Positions 30,333 to 33,265 of a stretch of DNA of 39,853 bases are shown in pieces. This stretch comes from an uncultured Myxococcales bacterium. Lineage in GTDB: Bacteria > Myxococcota_A > UBA9042. Where the stretch lies: NCBI GenBank assembly GCA_937910235.1, contig CALENB010000265.1:1-39853 (forward strand), in the 5' to 3' direction. The number at the start of each line of letters is the position of its first letter. Positions within the stretch are counted from its first letter, which is position 1. The notes beneath the pieces are model-generated. The model saw only the letters and a list, made by a program, of their open reading frames with translations, made no database searches and was not told the DNA's origin. The translations under genes and the position numbers were made by a program.

Positions 30333-31349
30333 CTATGCCTCGGCGGCGACCACCTCCGTCGCGCGGATGGCGTCTTCGACACGCGCCATCAACTCCGCGT
30401 CTGCCTCCAGCTTCTTGACGGCCGCGGCCTTGCCCTGCCCGAGCAGCTCCTCGCCCAGTCGGTAGTACGCGCCGCTGCGCGTCACCACCTCGAGCTCCTG
30501 CGCGACGTCGAGCAGCTCGCCGGCGTGGCAGAACCCGGTGCCGAAGTGCAGTTCGATCTCGACGTTGCGAAAGGGCGGCGCCATCTTGTTCTTCACGACC
30601 TTGACCCGGACTTTGTTGCCGTAGATCTCGTCGCCGCGCTTCAGAGAGCCAATCCGACGCACATCGAGGCGACAGCTGGCGTAGAACTTCAGCGCGTTGC
30701 CGCCGGTCGTGGTCTCCGGGCTGCCGAACATCACGCCGATCTTGTGGCGGATCTGGTTGATGAAGAGCAGCGTCGTGCCGTTCTTGTGAGCCAAGGCCGC
30801 CAGCTTGCGCATCGCGCGACTCATCAGTCGGGCATGCAGGCCGACGTTGTGATCACCCATCTCGCCCTCGATCTCGGCGCGCGGCGTCAGCGCGGCGACC
30901 GAATCGACGACGATGAGCGCCACGGTGCCGCTGCGAACGAGCTGCTCAACGACCTCCAGCGCCTGCTCGCCACAATCGGGCTGGGAGACCAACAGCTGGC
31001 TACAATCGACGCCGATATCACGGACATAGGTCATGTTGAGGGCGTGCTCCGCGTCGATGAACGCGCACACCCCACCGTCGCGCTGCGCCTCCGCGATGCA
31101 GCTCAGGGCAAGGGTGGTCTTGCCGCTCGCCTCGGGGCCATAGATCTCCACGATCCGGCCCTTCGGGATGCCGCCAATGCCAAGGGCGCGGTCCAACGTG
31201 AATGAACCGGTGCGGATCACCCCCTCATCCCACACCGAGTCGCCGTCGAGCGACATCAGGATGCCGCGCCCAAACGCCTTCTCCAGCTTCTGCACAAGGC
31301 CGCTCAGCGCCCCCTCATCCGTACCGCGCTTCAGTTTCATGATGCTCAT
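30333..31349 (-). CDS. recA: Recombinase RecA
   Basis: Forms the nucleoprotein filament for homologous recombination. 338 residues, with Walker [12 protein letters not shown] at 71-81, Walker [11 protein letters not shown] at 145-154, loop 1 [20 protein letters not shown] and loop 2 [21 protein letters not shown]. Several positions that are nearly constant in RecA differ: QPDCGEQ for QPDTGEQ, IRHKIG for IRMKIG, GSPE for GNPE, and ASCRLDV for ASVRLDI. ATG at 31349 has GGAGA four bases upstream. The C-terminus is only mildly acidic. It may be a second RecA paralogue (Myxococcus has two) or simply lineage-specific. Confidence 0.96.
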
Positions 31350-31365: not shown

Positions 31366-31407
31366 GGCGCGACGATTGCGCGCCGACGACACCGTCCATC
31401 GGTGTCG
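31366..31407. promoter_or_regulatory. Two stem-loops upstream of recA
   Basis: GGCGCG-ACGATTG-CGCGCC (31366-31384) and CGACACCG-TCCAT-CGGTGTCG (31387-31407) lie side by side in the 109-base gap between the comM stop and the recA start. Both arms match perfectly. They could be operator sites or a transcription brake; no recognised LexA site is identified. Confidence 0.4.
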
Positions 31408-31458: not shown

Positions 31459-32985
31459 TCAGGCAGCCGCCATCGCAACTTGGTCGAAACGCCGGTATTG
31501 CAGGGCTTCAGCGATGTGTTCGACCCCCACGGCGACGGCTTGATCGAGGTCGGCGATCGTCGCGGCGACACGCCAGATGCGGTCGTGCGCCCGCGGCGAG
31601 AGACCAAATGTCGCAAGCGCACGCAGCAGCACGTCGTGCACGCCTTCGGCCAGCGGCATCTGTTTCCGCAGCGTGCTCATCGGCACGCTCGCGTTGGTGG
31701 CCTGCGACACGTCGCCATAACGATCGAGCTGGCGCTGTCGCGCGCGGGCCACGCGTGCCTGGACGACCGCCGTTGGCTCGCCGCGGGACAGGCCGCGCAG
31801 CAAGTGAGAAGGGAGCGGATGCAGCTCGATCTGAATGTCGATGCGGTCGAGCAAGGGGCCGCTCAGACGGCTCTGATAGCGCTGAAGCTGAGCCTCGGTG
31901 CAGCGACACGGGTGGACCGACGAGCCTGCCCACCCGCACGGGCAGGGGTTCAGGGCGGCGACGAGCATGAAACGGCTGGGAAAGCGCACGACCTGACGGG
32001 CGCGGGCGATCGTGACGAAGCCATCCTCGAGCGGCTGTCGCAGCGTCTCCACGACGCCGCGGGGAAATTCGGGCAGCTCGTCCAGAAAGAGGACGCCGCC
32101 GTGCGCCAGAGAGACCTCACCCGGGCGTGGTAGGCTGCCGCCGCCAACCAACGACGTCGCGCTGCCGCTGTGGTGTGGCGCACGAAAGGGGCGCAGGTGG
32201 AGCAGACCGCCACCGCGCGGCAGCAGGCCGGCGACGGAGTGGACTTTGGTGACGGTCAGGGCCTCAACGACGGTGAGGGCGGGCAAGATGCCTGGCAGTC
32301 GACGAGCTAGCATCGTTTTGCCAGTCCCAGGCGTGCCGCTCATGACGATGTTGTGGCCGCCAGCCGCCGCTACCTCCATGGCGCGCTTGGCGACGTCCTG
32401 ACCTCGTATGTCCGACCAACAAGGCTGGGCGGTGTGGGCCGTGACCACCGGAAAGACTGGAACCTCGGGCCAAACGCCTGTTCGCAGCGCGGCGACGAGA
32501 CTGGCCAAGTCGCCAGCGAGACGCACCTCGATCCCAGGAACGGCCTGAGCTTCAGCGGCGTTCGCCGGGCAACAGATCACCCCCCGCAAGCCCAGCCGCT
32601 GCGCCAACTCCGCGACCGCGAGCACGCCCCGCACCGGACGGAGGGCGCCCGACAACGCCAGCTCACCGACCGCGAGCCATCCGCTCAGGTCGTCGGCGCT
32701 GACGTCTTCAGTGCAGACCAACACAGCCAAAGCGACCGGTAGATCCAAATAGGTGCCTTCCTTGCGCAGGTCGGCTGGCGCCAGGTTGACGATGACCCGG
32801 GCGCGCGGAAAACGAAGGTCGCTGTGACGAATCGCGCTGCGCACCCGCACCCGGGACTCCCGCACCGACATCTCCGGCAAGCCGACGATGTCCATCAGGG
32901 GGGTGCCCTGCGAGGTCTGCACCTCGACATCGACCAGCTGCGCGTCGACCCCCACCACCGCTGCACTCTGCACTCTTGCCAACAT
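31459..32985 (-). CDS. comM: YifB/ComM-family magnesium-chelatase-like ATPase
   Basis: 508 residues. In naturally transformable bacteria ComM is a hexameric branch-migration helicase that widens the recombination tract. N-terminal Lon-like domain (1-170, [19 protein letters not shown] at the start), Walker A GTPGTGKT at 217-224, Walker [10 protein letters not shown] at 299-307, a four-cysteine zinc site (C348, C350, C360, C362), [17 protein letters not shown], and the C-terminal Mg-chelatase lid (about 400-500). ATG at 32985 has an ideal AAGGAGGTGACC immediately upstream; the longer frame from 33051 is not used. Preceded by a candidate sigma-54 promoter and followed by recA. Confidence 0.95.
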
Positions 32986-33010
32986 GGTCACCTCCTTCGA
33001 GGCACTGAAC

Positions 33011-33029
33011 ATCGCAAGGGCCGTGCCAA
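33011..33029 (-). promoter_or_regulatory. Candidate sigma-54 promoter of comM
   Basis: Reverse strand TTGGCACGGCCCTTGCGAT: the -24 (TGGCACG) and -12 (TTGC) elements match the sigma-54 consensus with exactly ten bases between the GG and GC. The GC doublet lies 28 bases before the ATG, so a start site about 12 bases downstream would leave a 15-17-base leader carrying only the Shine-Dalgarno sequence. This geometry is hard to explain by chance. Confidence 0.65.
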
Positions 33030-33076
33030 GTTTGAAATCGCATATTTTCACGTAGTTACAAATCGAAGCGCGCCTG

Positions 33077-33118
33077 GTGAGACCGCCGAATGGGACCAGA
33101 GTGAGACCGATGGGACCA
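33077..33118 (-). repeat. Four TGRGACC repeats upstream of the sigma-54 promoter
   Basis: Heptamers TGAGACC (33078), TGGGACC (33091), TGAGACC (33102) and TGGGACC (33111) form two near-identical copies of GTGAGACCGATGGGACCA, the first with four inserted bases. They lie about 75-116 bases upstream of the predicted sigma-54 start site, the distance at which enhancer-binding proteins normally sit. Regulator unknown. Confidence 0.5.
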
Positions 33119-33194: not shown

Positions 33195-33265
33195 TCGGAT
33201 ACGCTGGCAACCCAACGGGGAGCAGGTTTGGACGAGGCTCGATGGGCCACCCGGCAGGAGCTTTG

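Follow-up and report, generated by a model that had tools for sequence, protein, structure and literature searches.

A putative sigma-54 promoter with an enhancer-like array upstream of comM-recA in Myxococcota recurs at candidate DNA-uptake and recombination genes

INTRODUCTION

The known switches that turn on bacterial competence rely on sigma-70 together with CRP/Sxy, on ComK or on dedicated alternative sigma factors. In the Sxy/CRP-S regulon of the Pasteurellaceae and Vibrio, comM, radC and DNA-uptake genes are placed under one specific promoter element, and the competence genes of Haemophilus include both comM and radC (PMC5809987). A role of sigma-54 has been described in Ralstonia solanacearum, in which RpoN1 is required for natural transformation. 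However, in the part of that study considered here, the requirement is attributed to pilA and type IV pili, together with PehR, and no sigma-54 promoter is seen at comM, recA or comEA (PMC4371752). The description of the Desulfovibrio sigma-54 regulome does not mention competence or DNA uptake (PMC4641369). In the open-access literature, to which our survey was confined (subscription papers and preprints being outside its scope), we encountered no description of a sigma-54 regulon that includes comM, and the novelty of the system described below is therefore provisional.

The window, that is, the whole stretch of 39,853 nucleotides analysed here, is contig C265 in the 7.1-Mb genome of an uncultured member of the Myxococcota and carries comM downstream of a putative sigma-54 -24/-12 element and an array of short repeats. 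Like the sigma-54 promoters of the NtrC/PspF/NifA class, this region combines a -24/-12 element, candidate activator sites ∼75-115 bp upstream and an IHF-like element between them. Unlike in that class, the array consists of short heptamers that occur in either orientation, its unit varies between families and the target is a recombination operon. The likeness to the Sxy/CRP-S regulon lies in the genes that share one promoter element, whereas that regulon uses sigma-70 with CRP and Sxy, involves neither sigma-54 nor an enhancer array and belongs to another phylum. Within the Myxococcota, Myxococcus xanthus likewise has a second RecA paralogue; however, its recA genes are described as having their own promoters and forming no operon (PMC7029660), whereas here recA follows comM with the sigma-54 promoter upstream. 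On the basis of sequence comparisons, we consider it likely that the comM-recA operon is transcribed from a sigma-54 promoter activated by an enhancer-binding protein (bEBP) acting on the array, as part of a family-wide regulon for DNA uptake and recombination (competence).

RESULTS AND DISCUSSION

A sigma-54-type element precedes comM

The sequence-only reading of this DNA had claimed a near-perfect -24/-12 element with GG-N10-GC spacing in front of comM and four TGRGACC heptamers at enhancer distance upstream of it, and both claims hold (Table 1). The spacing is exact, with GG at -24 and GC at -12, the match is to the sigma-54 consensus TGGCACGNNNNTTGCW, and the comM ATG lies 28 nt past the end of the element. 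The exact 16-mer occurs only once in the 7.1-Mb genome; this statement, as all others that concern the host genome as a whole, is based on pattern searches.

Table 1. Coordinates of the features at the comM-recA locus
Feature	Position in the window	Strand	Basis
Putative sigma-54 -24/-12 promoter element TTGGCACGGCCCTTGC	33029-33014	minus	Sequence, 11/12 to consensus, conservation
Predicted transcription start	∼33002	minus	∼12 nt downstream of the -12 GC, from standard sigma-54 geometry
comM (YifB/Mg-chelatase-like AAA+ protein), 508 aa	31459-32985, ATG at 32985	minus	Pfam ChlI, Mg_chelatase, Mg_chelatase_C
comM ribosome-binding site AGGAGG	32991-32996	minus	Sequence
recA paralogue 3' of comM	30333-31349, start ATGAGCATCATG at 31349	minus	Pfam RecA, 9.8e-121
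Enhancer-like array, four TGRGACC heptamers	33078-33117	unassigned	Sequence; equivalent arrays before comM in relatives
Heptamer 1, TGAGACC	33078-33084
Heptamer 2, TGGGACC	33091-33097
Heptamer 3, TGAGACC	33102-33108
Heptamer 4, TGGGACC	33111-33117
IHF-like element TAACTACGTGAAA, between array and promoter	33058-33046	minus	8/9 to YAANNNNYTGAAW, by inspection

Near-consensus sigma-54 patterns number 70 in the genome versus 64 for the reversed control, which is no excess. The promoter match by itself is thus not decisive and was dropped as evidence on its own; conservation was needed, and it is the position, the array and the conservation together that lead us to accept the element. The same count would favour the view that a degenerate motif is matched by chance in GC-rich DNA. 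However, the conservation of the site, its specificity for comM and the enrichment of the array together with the promoter (see below) all speak against chance and, as the site is conserved, we regard this explanation as already refuted and its residual probability as negligible. No Rfam match was found inside the window, and an explanation by an RNA family was dropped on this ground.

The element is conserved upstream of comM in the phylum

Absence of the site from relatives was one of the outcomes that the sequence-only reading had named beforehand as speaking against its promoter; instead, the site is retained. All comM upstream regions were scored alike, with a shuffled expectation of at most 0.3 per group. 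A site matching at least 10 of the 12 positions within 130 nt upstream of comM is present in all 22 genomes of the same family, although in one of them (L048) the threshold is reached only at a different position. It is also present in 20 of 25 genomes from the rest of the class and in 22 of 54 from other classes of the phylum, versus none of 76 unrelated bacteria outside the phylum. The site is also specific: when the 162 open reading frames of 250 aa or more around the comM loci were scored, a match of at least 10/12 was reached only five times, each time at comM. In a 78%-identical relative, the core TTGGCACG....TTGC is kept and the four spacer bases are changed. For several families that belong to other classes, the site recurs between -27 and -31 relative to the start codon, a position that would yield an almost leaderless message.

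A fixed change was observed in f5, another family of the class (loci with comM upstream DNA: L062, L064, L067, L069, L071 and L321-L324). Most comM promoters of this family keep TGGCACG, with TGA (TTGA or GTGA) replacing TGC at -12. TTGA instead of TTGC at this position is unusual for sigma-54 sites and counts against the sigma-54 reading.

A heptamer array whose unit varies between lineages

The four heptamers, which read GGTCYCA on the comM strand, are spaced by 13, 11 and 9 bp from start to start, and the array lies about 76-115 nt upstream of the predicted start. A comparable cluster, with at least three heptamers spaced in this way, is present only once more in the genome (contig C386; reversed control, 0). 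This second cluster is a 15-bp tandem repeat and was ruled out as a regulatory site.

Relatives carry arrays at the corresponding distance upstream of comM, with letters that vary by lineage. In the same family, the units are TGAGACY/RGTCTCA, found in either orientation, and one genus has the variant TGATACY; in other families of the class the units are GTCCAA/CTGGAC, GGGACA and CCGGAC. As exact 6-mer repeat counts overlook degenerate arrays, including the TGRGACC array of the window itself, the presence of arrays in relatives, notably in distant families, was established partly by inspection. Matching positions with differing letters are what would be predicted if orthologous activators had changed their specificity and the promoter had been retained. 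We incline, although only slightly, to a broader view, in which an old sigma-54/bEBP competence switch at comM governs the uptake and recombination of DNA in much of the phylum Myxococcota. Its enhancer units would have been re-coded by lineage (TGAGACY, TGATACY, GTCCAA, GGGACA, CCGGAC), the promoter and the gene order would have stayed fixed, and the DNA-binding domain of the activator would have co-evolved with the arrays at several genes.

The sequence-only reading had also suggested a search for such clusters upstream of other sigma-54 promoters, and this search was successful. A GAGAC-type half-site followed at 48-78 bp by TGGCAYGN5TGC gave 61 and 43 matches in the two orientations (104 in total) in the 22 family genomes, versus 1 and 2 (3 in total) for the reversed control of the array-plus-promoter pattern. 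At 71 distinct sites with sequence, the downstream genes were classified. IHF-type bend sites are common, but not obligatory, between an enhancer and a sigma-54 promoter; 21 of the 71 sites have an IHF-like element of at least 8/9, versus ∼2.4 in shuffles, and most of these elements share one or two fixed positions.

The array lies between comM and a divergent kelch/metal-binding-motif gene at 33242, which is kept beside comM in several family members, and it could in principle serve that gene rather than comM. However, the sigma-54 site is directed towards comM, both array and site are retained at comM in genomes of other families whose upstream genes differ, and at other loci the array stands in the same arrangement before different genes. 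We consider an assignment to the divergent gene very improbable.

comM is followed by a second recA

The gene 3' of comM, separated from it by 109 nt, encodes a RecA paralogue and, because another full-length recA is present elsewhere in the genome, it represents a second copy. The gene order suggests that recA is probably co-transcribed with comM as the first gene of the operon. A recA gene 3' of comM on the same strand is found in most of the class (nearly all members with sufficient sequence) and the adjacency was also seen in two of the families sampled in other classes. Family f7 has comM without an adjoining recA, and outside the phylum none of 71 genomes has recA adjoining comM.

An inverted repeat, CGACACCG-N5-CGGTGTCG, lies at 31384-31404 in the comM-recA gap and may be a regulatory or RNA hairpin element.

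Candidates for the activator

The genome encodes ∼18 bEBPs (strong PF00158 matches), and the presence of rpoN is implied by them. In 20 comM neighbourhoods, no bEBP gene lies near comM except in one genus, where it is ∼4 kb away, and an activator encoded beside comM was dropped as a candidate explanation on these grounds. Among the bEBP genes of the window's own genome with readable upstream DNA, there was no convincing case of an array upstream, and none of the ∼18 bEBPs could be tied to the array.

The failure to link a bEBP to the array would fit a model in which the heptamers are bound by a distinct regulator, for instance a small HTH protein acting as repressor or co-activator, with the sigma-54 activator bound elsewhere or acting from solution. 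The form of the array would also fit, as its units are direct as well as inverted and variably spaced, unlike the single dyad typical of Fis-type HTH domains. Nevertheless, the distance from array to promoter is an enhancer distance, the array and the sigma-54 site are found together far more often than in the control, and no other comparably strong conserved upstream element was seen. A separate regulator is thus an alternative that we hold to be clearly unlikely, and binding of a bEBP to the array is the reading that we retain.

On contig C230, an array-bearing sigma-54 site lies directly 3' of one bEBP gene (L258; ATPase at C230:8223-8726). The part of this gene that encodes the ATPase contains a single in-frame TGA, and the gene may be a pseudogene or affected by a sequencing error. 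The downstream site was not accepted as proof of the identity of the activator.

Genes downstream of array-plus-promoter sites

At the 71 classified sites, comM is the most frequent of the genes given here (12 sites). Next in number come a lipoprotein with a lamin-tail domain (8 sites, one of them on contig C330 of the window's own genome; its match to Pfam LTD falls short of the curated cut-off) and radC (7 sites in family relatives). Downstream of radC comes a ComEA-like helix-hairpin-helix membrane protein, which was seen in L315 and called by motif, with no Pfam match. The promoter element is thus common to comM-recA and radC-comEA in the family, the latter pair being seen in relatives. 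The remaining genes encode S8 proteases (subtilases, 6), Uma2 (6), a secreted protein of 185 aa that has no match in Pfam (5; L199, L203, L205, L220 and L250), HRDC proteins (4) and NuiA-type nuclease inhibitors (2). In part of the matches, which were read individually, and among the clustered genes of the 71 sites, there was no comEC, dprA or pilus gene. At L222, L204, L262 and L209, all of them in family genomes, array-bearing sigma-54 sites precede, by inspection, HicA/HicB-like, other toxin-like and transposase frames, so that the regulon either extends beyond competence or contains passengers. When the pattern was built with the unit of family f5, its matches in that family were almost exclusively at comM.

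This gene content bears on the nature of the regulon. Sigma-54/bEBP control could be real and yet serve a response to DNA damage or recombination stress, or a programme of predation or phage defence, rather than DNA-uptake competence. Beyond competence, comM acts in general recombination as well, and comM, recA, radC and HRDC would fit repair equally, whereas Uma2 and the HicAB/PIN-like genes would fit defence or stress. Moreover, one of the two recA genes of M. xanthus lacks a LexA box (PMC7029660). On the other hand, the ComEA-like membrane protein and the NuiA-type nuclease inhibitor suggest the handling of incoming DNA, and comM and radC, like genes of the comEA type, are components of known competence sets (PMC5809987). 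A repair or stress regulon therefore has some weight, but we regard it as unlikely, and a competence regulon remains our preferred reading.

In the mechanism that we propose for this competence regulon, sigma-54 RNA polymerase would occupy the -24/-12 element and remain silent until activation. The bEBP would bind the heptamer array 75-115 bp upstream, and a bend in the DNA, perhaps made by IHF at the conserved YAAN4YTGAAA element, would bring it to the polymerase, where it would use ATP to open the promoter. As the same activator would act at the other sites, one signal could turn on comM, the second RecA, RadC, ComEA and further genes together, with natural transformation as the expected outcome.

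These observations suggest that DNA uptake and recombination are switched on by a route absent from the open-access literature searched. A sigma-54 switch would tie DNA uptake to an ATP-driven, all-or-none and signal-responsive activator, and the promoter, the array and the operon offer a concrete handle on whether and when Myxococcota take up DNA. In addition, a repeat unit that varies at a fixed set of genes constitutes a natural experiment on the joint change of an activator and its sites.

Two further sites were noted in the window's own genome. On contig C435 (L176:3160-3630), five half-sites and the sigma-54 site TGGCATGGGATTTGCT precede an msrA-like frame with a long leader. At C9:36032 (L017:1370-1610), three half-sites lie upstream of a sigma-54 site, and the next ∼90 nt, which end in a hairpin and a T-run, possibly encode a sigma-54-driven small RNA.
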